The notes under the pieces are model-generated. The model was not told the DNA's origin. It saw nothing but the letters and a program-made list of their open reading frames with translations, and ran no database searches. This document shows, piece after piece, positions 10,040 through 32,500 of a stretch of 64,000 nt of DNA. Source of the DNA: Apostichopus japonicus. Taxonomy: Eukaryota; Echinodermata; Holothuroidea; Aspidochirotida; Stichopodidae. The translations under genes and the position numbers were made by a program. The DNA lies in the NCBI RefSeq assembly GCF_037975245.1, contig NC_092577.1, positions 15,824,013 to 15,888,012 of the forward strand. Reading direction: 5' to 3'. Every line of letters starts with the position of its first letter. Position 1 is the stretch's first letter.

Positions 10040-11398
10040 TTGCCTGTACATCCTAATGGTGGGATGTCAAGTTGCGCATCAAACGCTTCGCAAATTCAGT
10101 ATTACGTGACCCGCGCACGGCGTCGAAGAGAACATTTTTCGAAGCTGTGCGCGGAGGTGAAGTTTGGCGACCCTTCGGCTGTCATCGCTTTGCAGACCTA
10201 TCTCGATGAAAAGTACCACGGTGCCCGTGTCGAAGCGGTGGAAGCCGAGGAACGCCCTTCACTGAGGTTTTACCAGTCCGTAAGCTCATCGGCGTGTGAC
10301 AGACGCGTCCCATCTGTGCGCGCTACTGATGGGACCGTGGTTAGTGACCCTCACGGCATTGTCCGCGTATACAAGGATTATTATTTCAGTTTGTTTACGC
10401 GTGGCAGTGTCGACTTGTCGGCACAGGCCGATTTATTGAGGGGGAATCTCAAAAACTGTTCCCCACGATGTCAATGATATTTTGGGGGGGGGGGGGACGG
10501 AATAACCACTGTTGAGCTTTGGAAGGCGCTTTCGAAGATGAAGAATGGCAAGTCTCCGCGTTCGGACGGGCTTCCGAGGGAGTTCTACCGAACCTTCTGG
10601 GCCCGACCTCAGAGCCGTCTTCGAGGACGCCTTCCAAAACGGACTTTTAAACCAAAGTCAACGTCTGGGCATGATTACTTTGCTGCCCAAGTCTGGGAAC
10701 CCCTTGGACCCTCATAACAAGCGTCCAATCACCTTGTTAAATGTAGACAACAAGTTGTTGGCTAAGGCTTTGTGCAACCGCCTTGCACTGGCTATGCCGC
10801 ATCTCGTGGGTGATCTCCAGACTTGTGCAGTGAAGTGTCATTGCATCCAGCAAAACTTGTGGTTGTTGCGCGACTTGACCGACTTTGTTATTGAACGAGA
10901 TCTGCCATGTGCATTGGTGTCTCTGGACCAGCAGAAGGCCTTTCACATGGTGGATCGGGGGTTTTTAATGAATGTATTGGAGACGTTTCAGTTGCACCCG
11001 GTTTTTCGTAAATGGATTTCTGTTTTGTATCAGGACAGTTTCAGTTCTGTTATCGTTAATGGGTTTTGTTCGGAGGTTTTTAACGTGGAGAGGGGGGTGC
11101 GCCAGGGGTGCCCTCTGTCTCCATTACTTTATGTTTTGTTTAGGGTGCCAAAGTGAAGTGCGTTCAATATGCAGATGACATCACGTGAGTTATTTAGAGT
11201 CTGGGCTCCTTTGGTGCCCTCTCGCAGGATTTATCTATCTTTGAGAGAGCTACCGGGGCGAAGTTGAATCCGGAAAAGACAAAGGGCCTTCGCCTTGGTA
11301 GCTGGAGATTACAGAGACTTACCATTCGGTGCATCGTGGTCGGATCAAAATATCAAAATTAATGGTATATGGTTCGGCTACGATGCACCTTGTGATGT
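10040..11398 (+). pseudogene. LINE A copy 1 ORF2 fragment: linker and reverse transcriptase
   Basis: Translated pieces match the full-length LINE A ORF2 closely: the RRRREHFSKLCAEV region, then RT blocks LGMITLLPKSG, RPITLLNVD, DQQKAFHMVD (the catalytic Asp block; F-D is changed to F-H) and GVRQGCPLSP. Frames are broken by indels near 10441, 10483 and 10601 and by the deletion near 11145. The YADD motif survives in part (CADDIT) around 11170. Coding stops at 11398, where the Gypsy LTR begins. Confidence 0.82.
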
Positions 11399-12062
11399 TG
11401 TAGAGTCAACAGCATTTCCGGATTTCTGGATAGCGCCACCTTTTTTTTCCCCTGGACAACGGGTTACGAAATAGACAAACAACACGTTTTGTCGGTGAAG
11501 AAAATAGCGTATTAAAAAAGCGTACTTACGTGCTCCATTATTAACCAATCATTACGGAAGTTTGATTAGGACTTACCTTAATATCGCAAGGAACATTATA
11601 TATCGTATCTACCAGTGTTATATTACATATTTTATCGTTTATTTGTGAAGAGAAGTTCCACATCTTTACGAACTTCAGCTAAGTAGCCTACCTATTAAAT
11701 CGCGTTACCTATCAGCATTAGGCTGTTGTGTAAGGCCTATACTTCATTCCATTTCTCCGCGGACCGCGATATTTATTTGTGTTGAGGATAGAATCATCCA
11801 GTTCATCACTATTCACCTTTATGTTGGATGCCACGAGCCCGTGAACTTATTCTATTTTTATACATCCAGTTCGGATTCCGGCATATATATATTTATATTT
11901 CATCTTAAGGAATGAGGTTTCACCAGCAGTGTAATTCTGTCTGTCGCCCTCACTCCTGTCGTGAATACGACTTACGTGCCGGCGAAGCAGATTCCAGACT
12001 CCCCAACATACATAAGGAATAGGTAAGAACCTTTTATTATAGTATTTAAAACCGCCTCAACA
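11399..12062 (+). repeat. 5' LTR
   Basis: 664 bp, TG...CA ends, the same length as the 3' LTR with one difference seen by eye. It should contain promoter and poly(A) signals; I did not identify a clear TATA box, though a TATATATATTTATATTTC stretch lies near 11884-11901. Confidence 0.95.
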
Positions 12063-12065
12063 AAT

Positions 12066-12083
12066 TGGTGACCCCGACGTGAT
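12066..12083 (+). promoter_or_regulatory. tRNA primer binding site
   Basis: TGGTGACCCCGACGTGAT starts three bases after the 5' LTR. From memory this matches the 3' end of tRNA-Trp, the primer described for CsRn1-type elements. Confidence 0.8.
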
Positions 12084-12141
12084 TCTTAGGTTCGAACAAC
12101 TGAGAATGGAACATAAAATTTCACTGTAAAATATATCACTG

Positions 12142-12867
12142 ATGTCTACACTTTGCAAATTAATTTTTGTTGCTGACTCAAGAGCACATTCATTTCAAAA
12201 ATATTCTAAGCCACAACATTATAACCATAGAATTAAATACATTATAACGAGGGGTGCTAAGGTGAATGATCTGCTTCAACCCACTTTGGAACAAGTAAGA
12301 CACTGCAGCAATCGCTGTTACCCAGTGGTCAGAGTGGCTGCAGGGATAAATGACCTCCTAGAATTAAGACCAGTCAAGGACACAACCAAGCCGAAAATTA
12401 TTTATCCATCTACTATCACCTCGGAAGAACTAATATCTACTTTAGAGTTTTTCCGCAGTAAAGTCACAGAAGTCCACCCCAAAGCTATAGTAATCTTTAC
12501 CACTATACCCCCCGCAAGCATCCAAAAGTTCCAACAAAATCGTGGGGTCGTCGCACACAGTCAGAGCGAAATCAAGGACATTCAGACCAATTTCAACGAC
12601 AAGATCGACAGGATCAATGATGCTATATATGAATTAAATAATAAGGAGCAAGTTGGAAAGAAATTCACAACCTTAGCCTGGCACGCGTCGATACGCAAAG
12701 CAACCAAACGCACTAATACCCGCACAGGGAAGAAATATAAAGCCAGGGTAAACAATTTCAAAGATCTGTATGACGGCCTGCACGGTACTTCTCGGTGCAA
12801 ACTAAAGTGGTTTAACCTAATGCATGAACATTTCTCTAGAGATTTAGAAATAATAAACACCATTTAG
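12142..12867 (+). CDS. SGNH/GDSL-hydrolase-like ORF ahead of gag
   Basis: 241 codons, intact, between the PBS and gag (29 bp spacer to the gag ATG at 12897). The order and spacing of motifs match the SGNH hydrolase family: block I FVADSRA with Ser13, block II Gly38 (TRGAKVNDL), block III GIND at 68-71 and block V DGLH at 211-214 (Asp and His of the triad). Block I has A-D-S instead of the usual G-D-S. There is no signal peptide or membrane segment. Such esterase-like domains are known from ORF1 of some LINEs; I know of none upstream of gag in a Gypsy element. The role is unknown; lipid or glycan ester cleavage or a purely structural RNA or membrane role are guesses. The ORF shares the composition of gag and pol and looks like part of the element, not a chance capture. 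Confidence 0.7.
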   Translation: MSTLCKLIFVADSRAHSFQKYSKPQHYNHRIKYIITRGAKVNDLLQPTLEQVRHCSNRCYPVVRVAAGINDLLELRPVKDTTKPKIIYPSTITSEELISTLEFFRSKVTEVHPKAIVIFTTIPPASIQKFQQNRGVVAHSQSEIKDIQTNFNDKIDRINDAIYELNNKEQVGKKFTTLAWHASIRKATKRTNTRTGKKYKARVNNFKDLYDGLHGTSRCKLKWFNLMHEHFSRDLEIINTI

Positions 12868-12896: not shown

Positions 12897-13754
12897 ATGT
12901 CGGAAGGAGACGACGAACAAAAGAAAGTTAAGGAGCACCCGGAACAACATACAGCCACCATGTCAGCAGTCTCCATCAAACTACCCCCCTTTTGGCCAAA
13001 CGACCCGGCCATCTGGTTTGCTCTGATAGAGGCCCAATTTCAAACTAAGGGTATCACCGCTCAAACGACAAAATATGCCTACGTGGTAGCCGCCCTACAG
13101 CCCGAGGTAGCAGAGGAAGTCCGTGACCTACTACTGAAACCACCAACAACAGACCAATATGACAACATCAAGGCAGAGCTGATATCGCGTACATCCACCT
13201 CAGAGCAAAAACGCCTCCACCAGCTTATCAACGCAGAGGAATTGGGAGATCGCAAGCCCAGTCAACTGTTGCGGCGCATGCAACAATTGTTGGGAGACAA
13301 GAAGTTGGAGGAAAGCATACTGAAAACCCTATTCTTACAACGACTCCCAATTTCTGCACAAACCATACTGGCGACCAGTGATTCTCTGGACATTGGGCAG
13401 CTTGCGGTCATCGCAGATAGAATTTTAGAGGTTAACCAAACACCAACCATAGCACCCGTACAATCCCAGGCAAGCGCAACTGCCTCCAGTGAGATTGAAG
13501 AACTCCGGTTAATGGTATCTACCTTGAGTGCTCAAGTCAAAGAATTGTCAGATGGGTTAGCACGTAGAAGCAGGTCCCCAAATAGGTCAGTTTTCAACAC
13601 CGGCAACCGCCAAAGGTCATCCTCAAGGCGACGATTCGACCAAAAGGGGAGTCTGTGTTATTACCACTGGCGATTCGGGAAGGAGGCAAAGAAATGCCAA
13701 GATCCTTGCAAATGGAAAGCAAACCAGACGCCAAAAGACAACACCAGCGCCTAG
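12897..13754 (+). CDS. gag: Gag polyprotein of the Gypsy element
   Basis: 285 residues. The N-terminal capsid-like region begins with [21 protein letters not shown]-type sequence (about residues 28-48), common in CsRn1/Kabuki-type Gag. A coiled stretch (residues about 200-222) and an Arg/Ser-rich segment precede a zinc finger near 251-268 of form CX2HX9CX3C (CYYH...C...C), which differs from the usual CCHC knuckle and is characteristic of the CsRn1 group as I recall. It overlaps pol, which lies in the -1 frame. It would assemble the particle and bind element RNA. Confidence 0.88.
13643..13649 (+). promoter_or_regulatory. Candidate -1 frameshift site A AAG GGG
   Basis: In the gag frame the codons are CAA AAG GGG, giving a perfect X XXY YYZ heptamer (A AAG GGG). 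The pol frame is -1 relative to gag and is open here. A shift at this point would fuse Gag to Pol just before the Gag zinc finger. No downstream pseudoknot was modelled. Confidence 0.5.
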
Positions 13755-16700
13755 CGGCGACAGGGACGTCTGGTGCACTATTAGGTCGTCAATTTTATGT
13801 AAGAGACAGGCGCATTGGGACCAGGTACCTAGTTGATACTGGGGCAGAAGTAAGTGTTTTCCCAGCAACGCTAGACGACAAAAAGAAAACACACACACAC
13901 ACACTACAGGCAGCTAACAACACTGTAATTACAACTCATGGTCAACGATCCATGACACTAGATCTTGGATTACGCCGTATGTTTTCCTGGGTGTTCATAT
14001 TAGCCGACATAAGGACTCCAATCATTGGGGCAGATTTTCTTGCTAACTTTTCTATTTTGGTAGATGTCAGGAACAAGAAGCTAATAGATTCACAGACTAC
14101 TTTACAAGTCAACGGAAGTGGATCGAAAGCAAACCCACTTAGCCCAAGAGTCAACATAGCTAATAGTCAAGCGTACGTCACGAAGTTACTTCATGAATTC
14201 CAAGGTATCACAAAGCCGGACTACCAGGAAACTGCATTAAAACATAATGTCACTCACAGCATCATCACCAAAGGTCATCCTGTCACCGCAAGGCCACGTA
14301 GGCTCCATGCAGATAAACTGCAAACAGCAAAAGATGAGTTCAATCACATGTTGCAACTCGGCATCATACGCCCGTCCACCAGTAATTGGGCGTCGCCACT
14401 ACACCTTGTCCCGAAGAAATCTGGAGACTGGCGCCCTTGCGGCGATTACAGGGCTCTTAATAACATTACGGTGCCCGACCAATATCCAATACCACACTTA
14501 CAGGATTTCTCAAACGTACTGGCAGGGAAACAGATATTTTCAACCATTGACCTCGTCCGTGCTTATCACCAAATACCAATCCAACCAGAAGACATACCAA
14601 AAACCGCAATCACAACCCCTTTCGGCCTCTATGAGTTCGTCCGCATGCCTTTCGGCCTCAGGAACGCGGCTCAAACCTTTCAGAGGTTCATTGACCAAGT
14701 TTTAAGGGGATTACCCTTTGTATTCACCTACATCGACGACCTACTCATAGCAAGCAATACCAAAGAGGAACATGAGCAACACCTGCGTGCAATTTTTCAA
14801 AGACTCCAAGACCACGGCGTTGTAATCAACCCCACGAAATGTGTTTTCGGAGCAGATTCAGTAGATTTCTTGGGACATCACGTGACTTCCCAAGGCATCA
14901 GTGCCCTCCCAGAGAAGGTTACAGCAATTCAAGCCTTCACAGAACCAACGACTCTCAAGCAACTAAGAGAATTCTTGGGCATGTTCAATTTTTACCGACG
15001 CTTTGTACCTCATTGTGCAGACCTATTGTTACCATTAACAGACATGCTAAAAGGGGAAAGGAAAAATGCAAAAATCACATTAAATGATGCTCAACAAAAA
15101 GCATTCAGTCAGGCTAAAGAGACCTTAGCAAAGACAACCTTGTTAACACATCCCCGAGCTGATGCACCAATCCATGTGTCAACCGACGCATCGGATTTCG
15201 CTGTCGGAGGTGTCCTTCATCAAACTATTGAGGGACAACAACAACCAATCGCTTTCTTCTCAAAGAAGCTGCAACCTGCAGAAACAAGGTACAGCACTTT
15301 CAGCAGAGAACTCCTTGCAATTTATCTCACAATTCGCCACTTCCGCCACTACCTGGAAGGACGTACCTTTTTCGTCCTAACGGATCACAAACCCTTAACG
15401 TTTGCGTTGCAAGCTAAGCCTGACAAACATTCGCCAAGGGAAATCAGACAACTAGACTTCATTTCGCAATATACAACTGATATCAGACACATCAAAGGCA
15501 CCGAAAACCTCGTAGCAGACGCACTTTCGAGGTCACGATTGGAACATATTTCAACATCATCAATACCAACCACTGTTGTCGACACCGATAACATAGCGTT
15601 AACTCAAACGACGGATGACGAGCTGGAAAGCTTACGAAAATCATCGTCGTTACAATTTTTAGATGTTCCAATACCAATGACTGAGCGAACCATCGCATGT
15701 GACATTTCCACGGGCATTCCACGACCATATATTCCGCAATCATACCGCAGACAGGTATTCGATTCGGTCCACTCATTAGCACATCCAGGCACAAGGGCAA
15801 CTAGAACGCTAATCAAAAAACGATATGTCTGGCCATCAATGAATCACGATATCGCCAAATGGACACGGCAGTGTGCCAGGTGCCAACAGGTGAAAGTACA
15901 CCGCCATACCAAACCAGTTTTGTCAACAATACCACCGGCGAACGCACGTTTCAAGCAACTGCATATAGACTTAGTAGGTCCATTACCACCTTCTAAGGGT
16001 TACATATACCTCCTGACCATCATGGACCGTTATACGCGATGGCCAGCGGCATTACCACTAACAGATGCTACCGCGAGCACTGTGGTCAACGCACTACTTC
16101 ACCACTGGATTGCAAATTACGGAATCCCAGACACCATAACTACTGACCGTGGGGCACAATTTGAAGCCCATTTATTTCAACGCATCAGTGACCTTTTTGG
16201 ATTCAGAAGAATTCGCACTACCTCCTACCATCCAGAGGCAAATGGTATGATAGAGCGATCTCATCGCCGATTAAAAGAAGCCATAAAAGCAACAGACAAC
16301 CCGTCTGCTTGGTATGAGTCCTTACCAATTATCATGTTAGCTCTACGGAACAACCCTAGAAGAGATACAGACTGCAGCCCAGCAGAACTACTCTACGGTG
16401 AACCACTAACAATGCCTTGTGATCTAATTACCGAACAGAAACCCCAAGGGTGTTTGGACCCTAGCGATTTTGTCGACAGGCTGCGACAGCAGATGTCAAG
16501 GTTACAGCCAATCCTAACAAGGCCAACTAAACGTGCAAGCTACCTACCAAAAGACATCAACAGCTGCTCACACGTGTGGATTCGCATCGACCGTGTGAGA
16601 AAACCACTCGAAGCACCCTACTCAGGACCTTATAAAGTTTTGAAACGAACGGAGCATTACTTCACACTCAAAATGAAAGATAAGGAAGACACCGTTAGCG

Positions 16701-16945
16701 TCAGTAGACTTAAACCAGCATATCTGGAAGACGACTTCCACACCATCAACCAACAACCAACGTGCTACGAGGCAGCACCAAACACCCCGAGTACTACAAC
16801 AAACAAACATCCAACACACACCAACAAAAATGCTACAACAAACAAACAAACGAAAGTTACATTTTCAATACCACAAAAACAAACTCGTTCAGGCAGAAAA
16901 GTCCACCGACCGAAAAGGTTTATTCAAACATTGAATCCAGAATGA
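13655..16945 (+). CDS. pol: Pol polyprotein: protease, reverse transcriptase, RNase H, integrase
   Basis: 1096 codons from the first conventional start (a GTG at 13655); true synthesis probably begins by -1 frameshifting from gag, since the frame is open further upstream. Numbering from 13655: protease LVDTGAE at 59-65 and IIGADFL; RT FSTIDL (Asp299) and YIDD 359-362; RNase H STDAS (Asp511), RELLA (Glu552), TDHKP (Asp577) and ADALSR (Asp622); integrase zinc site His706, His710, Cys740, Cys743, and core Asp772, Asp831, Glu867 (DD35E). A chromodomain is not evident; the C-terminus is Thr/Asn-rich and basic. All catalytic residues are present and there is no stop, so the element may be active. 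Confidence 0.95.
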
Positions 16946-17002: not shown

Positions 17003-17010
17003 GGAGGGGG
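17003..17010 (+). promoter_or_regulatory. Polypurine tract
   Basis: GGAGGGGG lies four bases before the 3' LTR, where the plus-strand DNA primer is expected. Non-coding sequence of about 60 bp separates it from the pol stop. Confidence 0.8.
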
Positions 17011-17014
17011 CTAA

Positions 17015-17678
17015 TGTAGAGTCAACAGCATTTCCGGATTTCTGGATAGCGCCACCTTTTTTTTCCCCTGGACAACGGGTTACGAAATAGACAAACAACA
17101 CGTTTTGTCGGTGAAGAAAATAGCGTATTAAAAAAGCGTACTTACGTGCTCCATTATTAACCAATCATTACGGAAGTTTGATTAGGACTTACCTTAATAT
17201 CGCAAGGAACATTATATATCGTATCTACCAGTGTTATATTACATATTTTATCGTTTATTTGTGAAGAGAAGTTCCACATCTTTACGAACTTCAGCTAAGT
17301 AGCCTACCTATTAAATCGCGTTACCTATCAGCATTAGGCTGTTGTGTAAGGCCTATACTTCATTCCATTTCTCCGCGGACCGCGATATTTGTTTGTGTTG
17401 AGGATAGAATCATCCAGTTCATCACTATTCACCTTTATGTTGGATGCCACGAGCCCGTGAACTTATTCTATTTTTATACATCCAGTTCGGATTCCGGCAT
17501 ATATATATTTATATTTCATCTTAAGGAATGAGGTTTCACCAGCAGTGTAATTCTGTCTGTCGCCCTCACTCCTGTCGTGAATACGACTTACGTGCCGGCG
17601 AAGCAGATTCCAGACTCCCCAACATACATAAGGAATAGGTAAGAACCTTTTATTATAGTATTTAAAACCGCCTCAACA
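17015..17678 (+). repeat. 3' LTR
   Basis: 664 bp, nearly identical to 11399-12062. It is followed by the TSD ATGT (17679-17682) and by the resumed LINE A copy 1 sequence (AACCTGGAACGAGAG). Confidence 0.95.
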
Positions 17679-17682
17679 ATGT

Positions 17683-18399
17683 AACCTGGAACGAGAGGGC
17701 TGAGGTGCTTGAGAGCAGGCTCGAAACCTTTGGCACCCGCTGGCTTTCGATCCTAGGGAAAGTCACCGTAGTTAATCGTTTTGTTTCGCCCATCTTGTGG
17801 TACCCGGGCGCGGTGTATCCAATTCCGCGTCGCGTCCTGGTGCGGTTGGAGAGAGCGATATTTTCATTTATTTGGTCGGGTGGTACAGAGCTTGTCAAAA
17901 GGGCGGTAATGTACCAAAAACTGGAGAAGGGTGGGTTAGGGGTGGTTCATCTGGGAAGTAAATTGACCTTTTTGTTATTTAAGCAGTTGTTTGTAGCGGT
18001 AACTGACCCAGGGTTGCCTTGTTCATATTTTGTACGTTTTTGGGGCGGTTTGCACCTGCGTCGATGGGTCCCGGCGCTGTTTAGCAACAGAGAACCGCAT
18101 AGTAGTACTCCAAACAGGGTGGTGCGTGTCACTTGCTCCGCTCTGATTGAGTTGCCCCCTGTTGACCTGTCACAGCCGGCCCTCGTTCACAGTTCGTTGC
18201 GGGATAGGGCCTTGAATGCAATTTTTGTCCAGGGACGTCATTCTGCCGAAGTATGGCGTTCGGTGCATTCAAGGCTGAATGGTGAAATGCTCCGTGATCT
18301 TGCATGGAGAATTGCACACGGTGCCTTGGTGACCAACCTAAAAAGATATCATTGGCGATTGGGTGATGGACTGTGCCCAAGGACCGGCTGTGACTGCTT
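17683..18399 (+). pseudogene. LINE A copy 1 ORF2, post-RT segment
   Basis: This continues the ORF2 broken at 11398: WNERAEVLESRL, then the RLERAIFSFIWSGG region and the segment up to the C-terminal zinc motif (CPRTGCD). It matches the full-length copy (22063-22770) with a few substitutions and a small in-frame variation near 18283-18300. It is cut at 18399 by insertion of the full-length LINE, within the TSD GCTGTGACTGCTT. Confidence 0.85.
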
Positions 18400-18650
18400 G
18401 ACAGTTGACTTCGTGGAGTGCAGACGTGTTTTTTGCTCTCGCTCTCCATATACTACACTGTACTATATTAACTTATACTGTATTGCACTGTACTGTACTG
18501 TGCTTCCCGCCAGGCGGGAGTGGTATTTTTCTGTTAGTACGTGCGTGCTACAGGCGTTGGTTTGTTTTTCGATATATTGTTCTTACTTTACTATTACCTT
18601 TGTTTTGGTTCGTTTCTTGCTCCTCCGTGGCCTAGCCACCTTGCGGTATC
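18400..18650 (+). promoter_or_regulatory. LINE A 5' UTR
   Basis: It starts GACAGTTGACTTCGTGGAG, carries a run of ACTGTACT/ATACTG repeats (about 18450-18502) and a CCCGCCAGGCGGG hairpin at about 18508-18520. That hairpin mirrors the one in the 3' UTR. An internal promoter is expected here but not identifiable by eye. Confidence 0.7.
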
Positions 18651-19769
18651 ATGGCGTCGCGCCGTGATAGCCGTATTGTTAAGTTAACTTTTACCGGTGA
18701 ACAAGCGGTTCCACCGGTGCAAGTGTTCAGTATTTTGAAGAGTAAGGGTGTTGCGGTTCCTGGAGAGGTTGACGCTTTGCAGGCTCTCCAGGGTCGTAAC
18801 ACGTATGACTTACGGTTCACCAGTGACGTGACCCGGCAGAAGGGTGTCACGTTGCTGAGTAATGTCGATGGTTTGACAGTTACGCCATACGAACGTTCCG
18901 TATGGGTAACTGTCATCCACGTAGGACTAGAGGTGCGTCAGGAACTTGTCGCAACTGTTTTAGGACGGTTTGGGGCTGTCAAGGCTACCAAAATGTGCTC
19001 CTACGCACAGGCCCCTGGGGTTTTGAACGGGCACCGACAGGTTCGGATCGACCTAAAGCAGGACATTCCCTCCTTCCTGTTTATTTCAGGGCATAAAGCT
19101 CACGTGCGTTATCCCGGTCAGCCCCGCACCTGCTTCAGGTGTGGGGAGACCGGGCACGAAGCCAAGGGCTGCCCAAACAAAAAGTGTGGGCGCTGCCTTC
19201 GTCTTGGGCATGATACCTCTGCTTGCCCAAGCGAAGTTGTGTGCTCACTCTGTGGGAAGGAGGGACATTTTTTTCGCGCTTGTCCCTCCTCTTATGTATT
19301 TATGACAAAGAGCAGGGGTCAGGCAAAGTCGCAGAGTTCTGACGCACCTACTGCCTCGGAGGAAGCTCCACGCAAGGAGGGGGAACCAGGTGAGGATTCA
19401 CCTTCCGCACCTGGTTCACCCTCCCCCGTAGTTGCAGACCCTAACCCCGTGCCCGCACCGAGAAAGTCTCCAGCAGCTTCCCCCATCAACTCGTCCAGTT
19501 CCGTCCCCAGTCCGCCGCCGGTATCGCCAGATCCGGAGACTCTGTCCGACGGCGACTCCGGGGACTCGGTAGTCATCGGGTCTCCGGAGGCTCTGTCTGA
19601 CAGCGACTCCGGAGACTCGGTGATCGTAGAGCCGAAACGTGCCACCGGGACGAGCTGGTACGACGAGATGGGGGAACCCTCTCTAAAAAGGTCGGCCTCA
19701 AGCGACGACTCAGACGACGATATGTCGTCTAGAGCTCGCTTGAAGCTTACAGAATCGTCGTCGGCGTAG
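18651..19769 (+). CDS. LINE A ORF1 protein (zinc-knuckle nucleic-acid-binding protein)
   Basis: 372 residues, intact. The first 155 residues form a folded region without a name I can give. Three CCHC zinc knuckles follow at about 163-217 (CFRCGETGHEAKGC, CGRCLRLGHDTSAC, CSLCGKEGHFFRAC). The C-terminal 150 residues are Pro/Ser/Asp-rich and disordered, with a tandem duplication of SGDSVVIGSPEALSD-like units. As in other Tx1-type LINEs it should coat the element RNA. The ATG at 18651 sits at the end of the 5' UTR; the stop is 20 bp before ORF2, suggesting reinitiation. Confidence 0.9.
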   Translation: MASRRDSRIVKLTFTGEQAVPPVQVFSILKSKGVAVPGEVDALQALQGRNTYDLRFTSDVTRQKGVTLLSNVDGLTVTPYERSVWVTVIHVGLEVRQELVATVLGRFGAVKATKMCSYAQAPGVLNGHRQVRIDLKQDIPSFLFISGHKAHVRYPGQPRTCFRCGETGHEAKGCPNKKCGRCLRLGHDTSACPSEVVCSLCGKEGHFFRACPSSYVFMTKSRGQAKSQSSDAPTASEEAPRKEGEPGEDSPSAPGSPSPVVADPNPVPAPRKSPAASPINSSSSVPSPPPVSPDPETLSDGDSGDSVVIGSPEALSDSDSGDSVIVEPKRATGTSWYDEMGEPSLKRSASSDDSDDDMSSRARLKLTESSSA

Positions 19770-19789
19770 TTTTGCCTCATTGCCCTCTC

Positions 19790-22700
19790 ATGGCCCATAC
19801 ATTTTCAGTTGCAACTTTCAACGTCAATGGCATGAGGGATCATCGCAAGCGCAGTCGCATTTTCCAATATTGTATTTCAATGGAAGTCGACTGCGTTTGC
19901 CTGCAGGAAACACATATTTTGGAAGAAGATGTCCCTCTATGGGCTTACGAGTGGGGTGGTGGGCTGCATGCTTCGTTTGGTTCGTCTTCATCCTGTGGCA
20001 CTGTCATCCTTCTGTCACCTCGTCAGGCGGGTTTTGCCACTAGGGTGGAGACGGATCACGAGGGCCGATTGGTTTGCATTCTATTCAAGTATCCACAGGG
20101 TAACATCTCCCTTTGCAATGTGTATGCTCCCAATCGGCCTTCTGCTAGACGATAATTTTTTAACACGCTACCTTCCTTTGTTCCTGGTAGTGCACCATGT
20201 GTCATGGTCGGAGACTTTAACTGTGTCCCAGACTCGGGTCTTGACAGACTCGGGGCTCCTGTGTATGCTAGTCCCGACGCTGGGATCACAGAATTGGACA
20301 GATTCACTTCGGCACACCATTTAGCCGATGTCTGGAGGCATATGCACCCGTGTAGTACGGTGTATACGTGGATGAGGCCTAACGGAGAAGATGCCTCCAG
20401 GATAGATCGAGTGTATGCGCCCGTAAGTTTTAAATTTTCGGGTTGCGAGACGCTCAGCTGTCCGCTCTCTGACCATGACACTGTAGTAGCACGTTTTGTT
20501 TTGCCTTCCATTTTCCCGATCGGGCGGGGCCTATGGAAGCTTAACTGTCGGATTCTTGGCGAGGCAGAGTTCCGCCAAGGTTTCGAGACCAGGTACAAAG
20601 GATGGCAAACATTGAAGCCGGCCTTTACTTCTACATCCCAATGGTGGGATGATGTCAAGTTGCGCATCAAACGCTACGCAATTCAGTATTGCGTGACCCG
20701 CGCACGGCGTCGAAGAGAACATTTTTCCAAGCTGTGCGCGGAGGTGAAGTTTGGCGACCCTTCGGCTGTCATCGCTTTGCAGACCTATCTCGATGAAAAG
20801 TACCACGGTGCCCGCGTCAGGGCCCGTGTCGAAGCGGTGGAAGCCGAGGAACGCCCTTCACTGAGGTTTTACCAGTCCGTAAGCTCATCGGCGTGTGACA
20901 GACGCGTCCCATCTGTGCGCGCTACTGATGGGACCGTGGTTAGTGACCCTCACGGCATTGTCCGCGTATACAAGGATTATTATTTCAGTTTGTTTACGCG
21001 TGGCAGTGTCGACTTGTCGGCACAGGCCGATTTATTGAGGGGAATCTCAAAAACCGTTCCCCACGATGTCAATCATATTTTGGGGGGCGGAATAACCACT
21101 GTTGAGCTTTGGAAGGCGCTTTCGAAGATGAAGAATGGCAAGTCCCCGGGTTCGGACGGGCTTCCGAGGGAGTTCTACCGAACCTTCTGGGCAATAATAG
21201 GACCCGACCTCAGAGCCGTCTTCGAGGACGCCTTCCAAAACGGACTGTTAAACCAAAGTCAACGTCTGGGCATGATTACTTTGCTGCCCAAGTCTGGTGA
21301 CCCCTTGGACCCTCATAACAAGCGTCCTATCACCTTGTTAAATGTAGACTACAAGTTGTTGGCTAAGGCTTTGTGCAACCGCCTTGCACTGGCTATGCCG
21401 CATCTTGTGGGTGATCTCCAGACTTGTGCAGTGAAGGGTCATTGCATCCAGCAGAACTTGTGGTTGATGCGCGACTTGACCGACTTTGTTATTGAACGAG
21501 ATCTGCCATGTGCATTGGTGTCTCTGGACCAGCAGAAGGCCTTTGACATGGTGGATCGGGGGTTTTTAATGAATGTATTGGAGACGTTTCACTTGCACCC
21601 GGTTTTTCGTAAATGGATTTCTGTTTTGTATCAGTACAGTTTCAGTGCTGTTATCGTAAATGGGTTTTGTTCGGAGGTTTTTAACGTGGAGAGGGGGGTG
21701 CGCCAGGGGTGCCCTCTGTCTCCATTACTTTATGTTTTGTTTAGCGAGTCCCTGTCTCGTCTTTTGGAAAGGGACTCAAGACTTGTTCCATTCGTTGTGC
21801 CAGGGGGTGCCAAAGTGAAGTGCGTTCAATATGCAGATGACGTCACGTGTGTTATTTCGAGTCTGGGCTCCTTTCGTGCCCTCTCGCAGGATTTATCTAT
21901 CTTTGAGAGAGCTACCGGGGCGAAGTTGAATCCGGAAAAGACAAAGGGCCTTCGCCTTGGTAGCTGGAGATACAGAGACTTACCATTCGGTGCATCGTGG
22001 TCGGATCAAAATATCAAAATTAATGGTATATGGTTCGGCTGTGATGCACCTTGTGATGTAACCTGGAACGAGAGGGCTGAGGTTCTTGAGAGCAGGCTCG
22101 AAACCTTTGGCACCCGCTGGCTTTCGATCCTAGGGAAAGTCACCGTAATTAATCGTTTTGTTTCGCCCATCTTGTGGTACCCGGGCGCGGTGTATCCAAT
22201 TCCGCGTCGCGTCCTGGTGCGGTTGGAGAGAGCGATATTTTCATTTATTTGGTCGGGTGGTACAGAGCTTGTCAAAAGGGCGGTAATGTACCAAAAACTG
22301 GAGAAGGGTGGGTTAGGGGTGGTTCATCTGGGAAGTAAATTAACCTTTTTGTTATTTAAGCAGTTGTTTGTAGCGGTAACTGACCCAGGGTTGCCTTGTT
22401 CATATTTTGTACGTTTTTGGGGCGGTTTGCACCTGCGTCGATGGGTCCCGGCGCTGTTTAGCAACAGAGAACCGCATAGTAGTACTCCAAACAGGGTGGT
22501 GCGTGTCATTTGCTCCGCTCTGATTGAGTTGCCCCCTGTTGACCTGTCACAGCCGGCCCTCGTTCACAGTTCGTTGCAGGATAGGGCCTTGAATGCAATT
22601 TTTGTCCAGGGACGTCATTCTGCCGAAGTATGGCGTTCGGTGCATTCAAGGCTGAATGGTGGCATGAATCTTGCATGGAGAATTGCACACGGTGCCTTGG

Positions 22701-23176
22701 TGACGAACCTAAAAAGATACCATTGGCGTTTGGGTGATGGACTGTGCCCGAGGACCGGCTGTGACAGCTTAGAGAGTACCGCTCATGTTTTTTGGCATTG
22801 TTGCTTTGTAGTTAACTTATGGGAGTGGTTCCAGACCTGGACCGACCGTGTTACGGGAGACCGTTCATGGTCGGTAGGACAGGGCTTTATTTTATATGGG
22901 GTAGACCCTCCAGTTTGTTCGGTTGCTGTTTTGCATCGCATTATTTTTGTTTGCTCTATTGTAAAAAAACATGTTTGGCGGAATAGATGTGATGTGGTTT
23001 TTAGGGGGAAATTTGCCAGTTGGCAGGCAGTCCTGGAGGCGGTGAAGTCTGATATTCGCCTTCAGATTGAAGGCGACTTTCGCCGTTTATCTGGGCCTGC
23101 CTTTTTTGGACGCTGGTGTGCTGGGGAGGGGTTTTTCGTTTCGCTCCGTACTGGTCGTCCTTTTGTGGTTTTTTGA
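19790..23176 (+). pseudogene. LINE A ORF2: endonuclease and reverse transcriptase, one nonsense codon
   Basis: The frame opens at ATG 19790 (MAHTFSVATFNVNG). Endonuclease motifs: FNVNGMR, CLQETH, YAPN, then a TAA at 20153-20155 right after SARR, then the same frame continues with VGDFN and SDHDTVV. RT motifs: SPGSDGLPREFY, RPITLLN, DQQKAFDMVD, RQGCPLSP and YADDV. The C-terminal Cys-His motif is CPRTGC...H...HC near 22750-22800. Only this one stop separates it from a complete ORF2 of about 1128 codons. A downstream start at 20204 would give a protein lacking most of the endonuclease. It is possibly inactive, or expressed by readthrough. Confidence 0.9.
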
Positions 23177-29569: not shown

Positions 29570-32500
29570 ATGTTACAGGTTGCGATTGGGGCAATGAGTC
29601 TGCCAAGTAAGAAGCGTCAATTACGCTGCCCTCCAGATGCAGCAGATGTACCTACATGTATTATCCACAGTGACGACTGTACATCAGAAAACATTACCCT
29701 TCTGTCTGAACTTAACAACCCAGAAGAACGGTTCCAAAAAATCCAGGACGTTTGCAGACAGCGGTTAGCTCAACCTGCACATTCAGTACACCGTAGATCA
29801 GATATTTGTGAGCAGGTGCCCAACAAGTATTCACCTGAAATGAACTATGGGTATCGTCGTCAATGTTATCAAAAGTTCACAAGCAACCTAAGTCGTTTGA
29901 AAGGAAAAGTCGACACTGACAACCTGGAGCAGTCCACACATCGAACAACCAGACGATCAAGCTCTGAGACTGAAAGACTCATATTCAAGGCAGACTGTAT
30001 ATTTTGTGATAAGCAAGGGCGCAGAAAAGTTCAAATTGGACGCTCTTGGACCACTGAACCGCTCAGTGAGTTTGAATATGGCGGGGGTGACAGTGTGCTT
30101 CATGCCGCAGAGCAGAAGCATTTTGAACTCCTTACTAGAATAGAAGGTTATGATTTATTCGCCTGCGAAGCCCAATATCACCGCACTTGTCGCAAGGCTT
30201 ATGTGAACATTTCTGTTCACTGGCGGAGTGATTCCATAGAGGCGAAGACGAAGCAGAATGCCATGGAGATGGCTCACCAAGCAGCATATAACAAAGTCTG
30301 TGCAACTGTTGAAAAGACGCTGGTTGTGAAACAAGGCGTAGTCAAAATGACTGATCTTCTACAGGAGTATGTGGCTCATCTACAGGAATCACATTCCCCC
30401 AATTTGAGGTACAGATCAGAAAATCTCAAAGCAAAGCTGATGAAAAGTTACCCCCAGTCATTGTTATTCGCAAAGCTGGCCAAGAAAGGGAAGTTCCGGT
30501 CTGACCTGGTGTACAGCTCAGCTATTTCAACAGGAACAGCAGTGAGTCTGGCATATGAGCTAAGTGCCACGGACAGAACGAGAGATGTTGCTCTTGAGAT
30601 TCGCAATGAGATCAAGAATGCCTTCGAAACCTCTGATACTCTTCCTTGGCCCCCAACTGCCAGAGATATGGATGTTTCTCACAGCGTGCTGCCTGAAAAC
30701 CTGGAGAAACTTCGTGTGCTGTTAACTGGTGAGAACAATGCCAATGCCTCAAACAGAAACAACCGTTTGATACAATCCATTGGACAGGACATGTGTAGGG
30801 CAGTAACTAATGGACAATGGAAACTGCCAAAACACATACTCCTGTGTGTGACATTACGTCACATGTTCCGTAGTGCTGAACTCATCACACTGATCAACAG
30901 ATTCGGACACTCAGAGAACTCCTTTGCACAGTTGAAGTTGAGACTGCACTTGCAACAGCCATGCATGAGTCATCAAACCTCTTAACAACACAGATAGTGA
31001 GAACACCTGCAGGACAGTCAACGTTTCATTCCGATTTTGACAATTTTGATCAGCTGTCGCTACGAGGTCTGTGCACACTGCTCATGGTATGATATTGCAA
31101 CACGCCATTGATGTCAGACCAGAGGACATGCAAGACGTTCATCGTGTAAGCTTACCAGAATTGGAAAAGACGGGGGACCGTTCTCTGAAGCTAAACACTG
31201 AATCTAGAGAGTCTTCCCGATTGCTACATAACTCAGCGCTCCAGTCCCGGGTACAAGATTAGCAAATGGACATGCCCTACAGGTTAGTAGGTTAGTGTGT
31301 ATGTATGTATATATGTATCTATGTGTAAGTGTGGGTGTATCTTCATTTATTGATTTATTGATTAATCTTGTATTCCCACTCGAGTGCCCATCCCAGTTAC
31401 ACTGTTGATGTTGATAGAAAAGATTTAGAAGCATCTGCCTCATCTCCGACCACCTTCTAACTAAACGCAATATTATTTGATTGTCAAATCTCAATTCTTA
31501 TTTATTCTCAGGTTTACCTGTTACCAAGGAAGCAGATCAACGTAACATGCTGTGGACTTTCATCAGGAGCATCAGTGCAGATACTAGCCAAGAGGTACCG
31601 GGATGGTCAGGATATATTTCTGTCACTGGACAGAAGCCAGCCTCAACCACCACTGTTGATTACTATCCTGTAATCAACAGCCCCATCACAGAATACAAGA
31701 CTCAAAGACGCAACACGGGAGGTGGGTCAAGACTATGTCATCACCACATTCGACCTTGGGGTCTGCATGAAGGCATATCCGTTTATTTGGAAGTGCCCTG
31801 CTCGCTATGAGAAGCATATCGTCATGATTGGAAGCTTCCATGTCATATGTGCGTACCTTAAAATGATTGGCAAGAAGATGAACGGCACTGGGCTCGCTGA
31901 TATAATGATTGAAGCAGGTTTGATAACATCTGGATCTGTACGTGGTGTTTTGGCTGGTAAACAGTACAGCAGAGCTATGGTATGTCACAAGACCATGCTA
32001 GAAGCTCTGGAGAGGTTACTCGTGACTGCATATCTTGCTGATGAAGGAAAAGCCAATTTGATGGACTTCCTGCGTAAAGAGTCACAGCCGTTGATGCAAG
32101 ACATTCTGGAGACACCATCCCAGTTGACAATGGCCGGTGCCATAGAGGATGAGGACATACGCGCTCTCATGAATGGATACGCAAAGTTCAAAGATGAGGT
32201 GAAAGGAGGGAAGCTCGGGAAGACAGCTGAGTTGTGGTTGTCATACATGGACCACATCTGGTTGGTTCTGAAGCTAATCCAGGCCGTGAAGACCAATAGC
32301 TATGCTCTTTACACCGAGTCTCTCTATAGGATGTGCAGCCTGTTCTTCAGCTTCGATGGCCACAATTACTCTCGTTATTTAACATTCTTCTCCGCGTGCA
32401 ACATCCAGGTGCAACACAACTACTTGAAGTAGGTGCCTTCAGTGTTGCTCGATCTATGATTCCCGGCAATCGATGTCCTGTTGATAAAACGATTGAAGAA

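Follow-up and report, generated by a model that had tools for sequence, protein, structure and literature searches.

A predicted SGNH hydrolase gene ahead of gag in a CsRn1-type retrotransposon sublineage of the sea cucumber Apostichopus japonicus

Genes for SGNH/GDSL esterases have been reported in long interspersed nuclear elements (LINEs), Penelope-like elements and long terminal repeat (LTR) retrotransposons of bdelloid rotifers (PMC5408684, PMC3905857). A catalytically active esterase that binds acidic phospholipids has been described in ZfL2-1 ORF1p (ORF, open reading frame; Schneider et al. 2013, PMC3905857), and the bdelloid Vesta1 LTR retrotransposons carry a GDSL/SGNH ORF3 with intact invariant residues (Rodriguez, Kenefick, Arkhipova 2017, PMC5408684); GDSL ORFs also occur in bdelloid Athena/Terminon elements (PMC5408684, PMC6431247). 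Here we analyse a 64,000-nucleotide (nt) stretch of the Apostichopus japonicus genome (assembly GCF_037975245.1, contig NC_092577.1, positions 15,824,013 to 15,888,012; hereafter the window), in which a Ty3/Gypsy element of the CsRn1 type encodes, between its primer-binding site (PBS) and gag, a protein with a predicted SGNH fold and a near-invariant active site. The ORF is under purifying selection and is inherited together with pol. What is new is that an SGNH-bearing LTR retrotransposon has this ORF before gag, that a whole sublineage in this genome retains it, and that it shows signs of selection.

Vesta1 resembles the window element in being an LTR retrotransposon with a separate SGNH/GDSL ORF, but its ORF3 follows gag and pol, whereas here the ORF precedes gag in a CsRn1-type element; within-genome variation of Vesta1 is described as mostly neutral (PMC5408684), in contrast to the clear purifying selection and inheritance with pol found here. 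The two are set apart by description, not by sequence. The ORF1 esterases of CR1/L2/RTEX LINEs, such as ZfL2-1, share the SGNH fold, the Ser-Asp-His triad, the Gly and Asn oxyanion residues, a basic surface and the position as first ORF (PMC3905857). However, LINE ORF1 also contains a coiled coil, a PHD finger or a zinc knuckle and takes the place of Gag, whereas the window ORF encodes a stand-alone predicted enzyme of 241 amino acids beside a normal gag. Described CsRn1-clade elements (CsRn1, PwRn1 and AgCR) have a tRNA-Trp PBS, a CHCC Gag motif, 4-bp target-site duplications (TSDs) and often a −1 gag–pol arrangement; in the passages of PMC2582038 cited here they contain gag and pol only, with an env-like third ORF in some trematode elements, and no pre-gag ORF is mentioned. 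Plant LTR retrotransposons bear extra ORFs upstream as well as downstream of gag–pol (PMC7264820), a paper in whose main text the word ‘esterase’ is absent. Texim SGNH genes of fish Helitrons (PMC4021074) likewise tie an SGNH hydrolase gene to a mobile element, but there the element is a DNA transposon, the gene has introns and no reverse transcriptase (RT) is associated. Troyka (PMC12440569) was also considered; its CG...CG ends and 3-bp TSDs are unlike those of the window element, and the words esterase, hydrolase, SGNH, upstream and ORF1 are absent from its main text.

No SGNH ORF before gag appeared among the matches listed from the open-access PMC literature (Repbase and subscription journals lay outside this search), and ‘esterase’ and ‘hydrolase’ are absent from the main text of an annelid LTR-element survey that includes the CsRn1 clade (PMC8556966). 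Some of the papers matched name SGNH only when citing the Texim work, others only as a gene family of plants. A sequence-only reading of the window had named LINE ORF1s as the known bearers of esterase-like ORFs and none upstream of gag in Ty3/Gypsy; it needs amending in that SGNH/GDSL ORFs were already known from LTR elements, namely Vesta1. With esterase-bearing and esterase-less sister groups in one genome and measurable selection, the question of why retrotransposons carry esterases becomes testable by comparison and biochemistry. Annotation based on gag and pol could overlook an enzyme in this position, because Pfam GDSL models miss the ORF.

A conserved active site in a predicted SGNH fold

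The ORF (positions 12142–12867, + strand) runs uninterrupted from ATG to TAG over 241 codons, an intact frame as the sequence-only reading had described it, and the four SGNH blocks noted there (Ser13, Gly38, GIND at 68–71 and DGLH at 211–214) all lie at those positions. As a single-sequence query, its protein found 11 homologs at E up to 0.001 among 5.8 billion proteins (best E 1.3e-54); in the same collection, a 12-row profile reached 39 relatives and a 33-row profile, built from an alignment that omits 7 of 40 sequences (P0023 and P0035–P0040), reached 35 at E up to 0.01, none of them a protein with a precomputed Pfam domain. One named relative is HOLleu_00541 of the sea cucumber Holothuria leucospilota.

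Conservation was read from a 48-sequence alignment, consisting of 50 proteins minus five shorter than 170 amino acids, plus three proteins from the A. japonicus genome. The active-site residues stand in SGNH order and are nearly invariant (Ser 42/43, Gly 45/45, Asn 48/48, Asp 46/47, His 46/46), and S13, G38, G68, N70, D211 and H214 all occupy columns with 90% conservation or more, of which there are 20 in 241. By hand calculation, a random draw of six columns would fall wholly within those 20 with p of about 1.5e-7, a value that overstates the case because Gly, Asn, Asp and His tend to be conserved within motifs in any case. The block I change from G to A, which had been thought to need explaining, is present but no oddity, Ala being the usual residue across relatives (A 35, C 4, S 3, T 1; n = 43), and the next three positions are D (43/43), S (42/43) and R (43/43). 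A 46-row set that also omits P0036 and P0039 contains P0049 and P0031 as long branches.

Some relatives stand out in other ways. A subgroup (P0014, P0019, P0021, P0024, P0028 and P0032–P0034) comprises SGNH relatives of 272–317 amino acids that have a WKR-type motif and, at the C terminus, a tail rich in Ser and Asp. P0026 is filed under a metagenome-assembled genome of the bacterium Sedimenticola and is, we guess, probably animal DNA in a bacterial bin. Scans of prokaryote genome contigs with P0026 and of viral contigs with the 33-row profile found no relatives.

The predicted structure of the ORF protein has an SGNH-type α/β fold, as the check suggested by the sequence-only reading had anticipated. 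In the model, S13 comes right after strand 1, G38 after strand 2 and N70 after strand 3, with D211 and H214 just before the C-terminal helix; such placement of the triad residues is the canonical SGNH order. Sialate O-acetylesterases are among the structural neighbours, and the ZfL2-1 structure 4c1b is absent from the best 50 listed, which excludes nothing. Other weak Pfam matches of the protein (MIS13, PIN_8 and others) and weak Protein Data Bank (PDB) sequence matches (MW1564, the R1Bm endonuclease and a TASOR chain) were rejected, being unsupported by the predicted structure. The protein is basic (pI 9.9–10.8), and four proteins tested contain no hydrophobic segment of transmembrane strength (highest 19-residue Kyte–Doolittle means 0.75–1.19, a crude scale applied with no signal-peptide predictor).

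Copies, purifying selection and inheritance with pol

A search of the genome of origin (671.6 Mb, 35 contigs) gave 70 matches to the ORF, including 15 full-length copies free of stop codons that form four subfamilies. By identity to the window ORF, these are the window copy and one on contig C16 (98%), seven at 44–45%, three at 39% and three at 37–38%. Searching with a distant relative, P0012, gave 24 matches, all at places already known, and P0013, from the protein database, is a near-identical match to subfamily 2. All five full elements compared, one or two per subfamily, have the layout LTR–SGNH–gag–pol–LTR, with LTR identities of 99.85% (window), 99.5% (L031), 100% (L032), 99.85% (L033) and 99.2% (L034); in L031 and L032, AA replaces CA at the end of the LTRs.

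The ORF is under significant purifying selection. Pooled over the four subfamilies, with changes counted against the commonest codon, the tree ignored and few changes available, there are 29 synonymous changes per 665 sites and 21 nonsynonymous changes per 2254 sites (ratio 0.21, Fisher p 6e-8). The same test on gag gives a ratio of 0.27 (p 0.001) for a pool that omits L007, with a broken frame, and L016, of another length. Between subfamilies, synonymous sites are saturated, yet the proteins retain 37–45% identity to the window ORF. That selection keeps the active site intact suggests that the element uses the protein.

We next consider the ORF in relation to pol. RT places in the genome, scored for 144 of 1563 candidates, fall into a CsRn1 tier of 54–100% identity and a next tier of 47% or less. 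With 45 of the 144 scored RT places paired against 33 of the 70 SGNH matches, an SGNH match lies 1.4–2.0 kb upstream on the same strand at 19 of 43 upper-tier places, and all 15 uninterrupted full-length ORFs are among these 19, upstream of CsRn1-type RT; at the two lower-tier places checked (of 101), there was no SGNH match. Three sister subfamilies lack the ORF: their gag begins about 115, 205 and 395 nt past the PBS, and between PBS and gag they contain neither an SGNH ORF nor any other long ORF. In an unrooted pol tree of 29 rows, which omits L059 (segment too short), one branch with 100/100 support splits the 15 ORF-bearing from the 13 ORF-less elements, so one gain or one loss accounts for the sampled elements; the remaining row, L067, which carries no label, falls with subfamily 3, and an SGNH fragment lies upstream of it. 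As for the claims of the sequence-only reading, that the frame has recently been kept open is borne out by the other copies and by purifying selection across them, and a second amendment is that sister subfamilies of the same clade lack the ORF.

Two reduced or degenerate forms were also seen. L059 with L030 (C16:11748225-11750626) is a CsRn1 element whose SGNH ORF seems reduced to its first ~55 residues, abutting gag. A degenerate repeat with many similar copies (for example C8:34018374-34018869) contains SGNH-like pieces matching query residues 6–76 (with one TAA) and 70–170, and looks like a decayed or non-autonomous derivative.

Expression of the ORF and gag

The SGNH ORF is the first long cistron, behind a short upstream ORF (uORF). 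Judged by the rule of a purine at −3, the context of its ATG is weak in the window (TCACTGATGT) and that of the gag ATG is stronger (ACAAGAATGT). From the SGNH stop to the gag ATG, the distance is 29, 57 (61 in L006), 100 and 66 nt across the four subfamilies; because it varies, no fixed frame relation backs read-through or frameshifting, and gag is probably initiated separately, by reinitiation, leaky scanning or splicing. Leaky scanning to gag would be expected to deplete the SGNH ORF of out-of-frame ATGs; such depletion is weak and uneven (p 0.27, 0.012, 0.030 and 0.090). The uORF of the window (12106–12129, + strand) has seven codons, a good start context and a stop 12 nt 5′ of the SGNH ATG. 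In the other subfamilies, uORFs of 2–12 codons start at most 90 nt before the SGNH ATG, and that of L032 overlaps the SGNH start.

Proposed function and alternatives

We propose, with a probability of roughly two in three, that the still-selected third gene of this CsRn1-type sublineage encodes a stand-alone SGNH acyl-ester hydrolase that is intracellular and membrane-linked. An intact active site and the lack of env make an intracellular, membrane-acting acyl-ester hydrolase the most economical reading. The enzyme, with its putative full Ser-Asp-His triad and oxyanion-hole Gly and Asn, would be soluble and basic and would work inside the cell of origin, cleaving an ester at a membrane surface, either in a phospholipid or in an acyl group on a protein; such cleavage could aid the assembly, localisation or release of the particle or ribonucleoprotein, by analogy with what has been proposed for the CR1/L2 LINE ORF1 esterase. 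It is very probable that the protein is catalytically active. That it acts on an acyl ester of a lipid or a protein we regard as about as likely as not, and we suggest action at membranes during assembly or transport only tentatively. A bolder version, which we hold to be rather doubtful, is that an undescribed, old and vertically inherited LTR–esterase–gag–pol–LTR sublineage uses an active SGNH acyl hydrolase, translated from the first cistron of a polycistronic RNA, as an obligatory intracellular helper of retrotransposition. The more general idea of the sequence-only reading, an SGNH-hydrolase-like accessory protein upstream of gag, gains support from the predicted fold, the other copies and purifying selection; action on lipids or glycans, also suggested there, is conjectural.

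Several observations weigh against the proposed hydrolase. The placement of the triad is known as the topology of a predicted model and not as distances. The match of the ORF to PF13472 (GDSL) is below the Pfam cut-off (E 0.073, 14.0 versus 32.9 bits), a threshold that serves as a detection aid and is not a defining property of the SGNH superfamily; at E up to 1, each of two GDSL models picks up just 3 of the 33 members aligned, and PDB sequence searches found no solved SGNH protein. Among the relatives, P0048 aligns Phe at the Ser position and P0021 has Asn for Asp, and some within-subfamily pairs taken alone are near neutral (L004/L006, 0.88; L011/L012, 0.63). The ORF-less sister subfamilies in the same genome are multi-copy too, with near-identical copies, and CsRn1-type elements as a group can thus do without the gene. 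Being basic, the protein could equally be an RNA binder; the case for an enzyme is built on sequence, predicted fold and selection.

The OSK domain of Oskar binds RNA, and an unlikely alternative is that the SGNH fold encoded by the ORF is not catalytic but has been repurposed, like OSK, for binding RNA or protein, acting as a nucleic-acid-binding helper of Gag. The basic charge of the protein would suit such a role, Pfam OSK also matches a different SGNH repeat of this genome, and Oskar has been termed a non-catalytic SGNH protein (PMC3905857). However, a pure binder would be expected to lose the active-site residues, whereas the columns of Ser, Asp, His, Gly and Asn belong to the 20, out of 241, that very divergent sequences conserve best, which speaks against it. 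Chance or passenger status, including that of a host gene which was captured but does nothing for the element, has almost no probability left: the absence of the ORF from the three sister subfamilies read from PBS to gag would fit it, but it is rejected by the homologs, the copies in the same genome and purifying selection, by the nonsynonymous-to-synonymous ratio of 0.21 (p 6e-8), by the identity retained despite saturated synonymous sites, and by the same layout in four subfamilies.

Other alternatives accept an enzyme and give it a different task. Membrane penetration has been suggested for bdelloid GDSL ORFs (PMC5408684, PMC6431247), and an env-like enzyme might open membranes or trim surface glycans, letting particles exit or enter cells and spread between cells or species. 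We consider this improbable: sialate O-acetylesterases are indeed among the structural neighbours, but the four proteins tested show no transmembrane-strength segment on the crude hydrophobicity scale, the pol tree indicates inheritance with pol and not scattered gain, and the ORF sits before gag and not at the env position. Finally, SGNH enzymes deacylate many substrates, and a hydrolase might take an acyl or acetyl mark off a host factor or the element's own proteins, shielding the element from silencing. As the first long cistron, the ORF could be translated early, which such counter-defence or regulation could exploit; the ORF-less sister subfamilies speak against it, being multi-copy in the same genome, and we give it little credence.

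Architecture of the element

The window element is a complete, young Ty3/Gypsy element nested inside a LINE copy, with all features on the + strand except the TSDs, which carry no strand. Its left TSD copy, ATGT (11395–11398, by sequence reading and a boundary script), is followed by the 5′ LTR (11399–12062), delimited by LTR self-comparison, with its ends trimmed by TG...CA and the TSD. The PBS (TGGTGACCCCGACGTGAT, 12066–12083) belongs to the tRNA-Trp type described for CsRn1-clade elements, an assignment made by comparison with the PBS printed in PMC2582038. Downstream of the SGNH ORF (active-site set S13, G38, N70, D211, H214) lies gag (12897–13754), which encodes 285 amino acids with DUF7041 (PF23055, E 1.4e-33) and a CHCC motif, CX2HX9CX3C, near the C terminus. 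The pol open frame (13586–16945), at −1 relative to gag, contains an aspartyl-protease-like stretch, whose matches are below the Pfam cut-off, RT, RNase H and the integrase zinc-binding and core domains. A purine run (GGAGGGGG, 17003–17010), by sequence reading likely the polypurine tract, precedes the 3′ LTR (17015–17678) and the right TSD copy, ATGT (17679–17682). The LTRs are 99.85% identical, with one mismatch in 665 aligned bases (11399–12063 versus 17015–17679), in agreement with the difference of about one base given by the sequence-only reading; judged by TG...CA ends and the 4-bp TSD ATGT, the LTRs proper end at 12062 and 17678.

The element thus bears the published CsRn1-clade marks, a tRNA-Trp PBS, the CHCC Gag motif and a 4-bp TSD (compare PMC2582038), and the clade assignment is drawn from these three, the pol tree being made up of elements of this genome. 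The tRNA-Trp-type PBS TGGTGACCCCG is present in the window (12066), in L031 and L032, and in the ORF-less L061–L066, L068 and L069; L034 is one base off, and the exact pattern was not found in L033. The CHCC motif CX2HX9CX3C occurs in Gag of the window element, L031 and L032, and the stretch examined in L033 contains no whole motif, its gag frame ending there at CFYH. All five full-length elements have 4-bp TSDs, read from their flanks (ATGT, GTAT, GGGT, TATC and GTAC).

Elsewhere in the window, a 471-amino-acid ORF (29570–30985) has no Pfam match at E up to 0.01. The LINE copy interrupted by the Gypsy element occupies 10040–11398 and 17683–18500, and another, better preserved copy of this LINE adjoins at 18651–23176, with an ORF1 containing zinc knuckles and an ORF2 containing RT and a weak endonuclease match.

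Other SGNH genes in the same genome

Of 54 PF13472 matches in the genome, none lies at an SGNH place of the retrotransposon ORF family, and 19 are ORFs of the type of L070, a second repeated SGNH ORF with a 316-amino-acid frame matching Pfam OSK (E 3e-10) and GDSL (2e-9). A LINE-type esterase, L071 (C9:21786100-21787500), is a CR1-ORF1-like frame of 469 amino acids that matches PHD and GDSL and, below the cut-off, CCHC; the combination of PHD and esterase is said, going by a title, to have been described for CR1 ORF1 by Kapitonov and Jurka in 2003. Aligned by hhalign with these two esterases, the profile of the retrotransposon ORF family gives a weak match (E 5.7e-4, probability 29.5, 67 columns) whose register brings together block I, block II (RGAK/PGAK) and block III (GIND/GTN). 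The motifs of blocks II and III hint at one pool of retroelement esterases shared by LTR and LINE elements, a lead and not proof. Four L070-type copies on contig C15 (24848973, 24885650, 24922183 and 24958703) lie about 36.6 kb apart, as in a large repeated unit.
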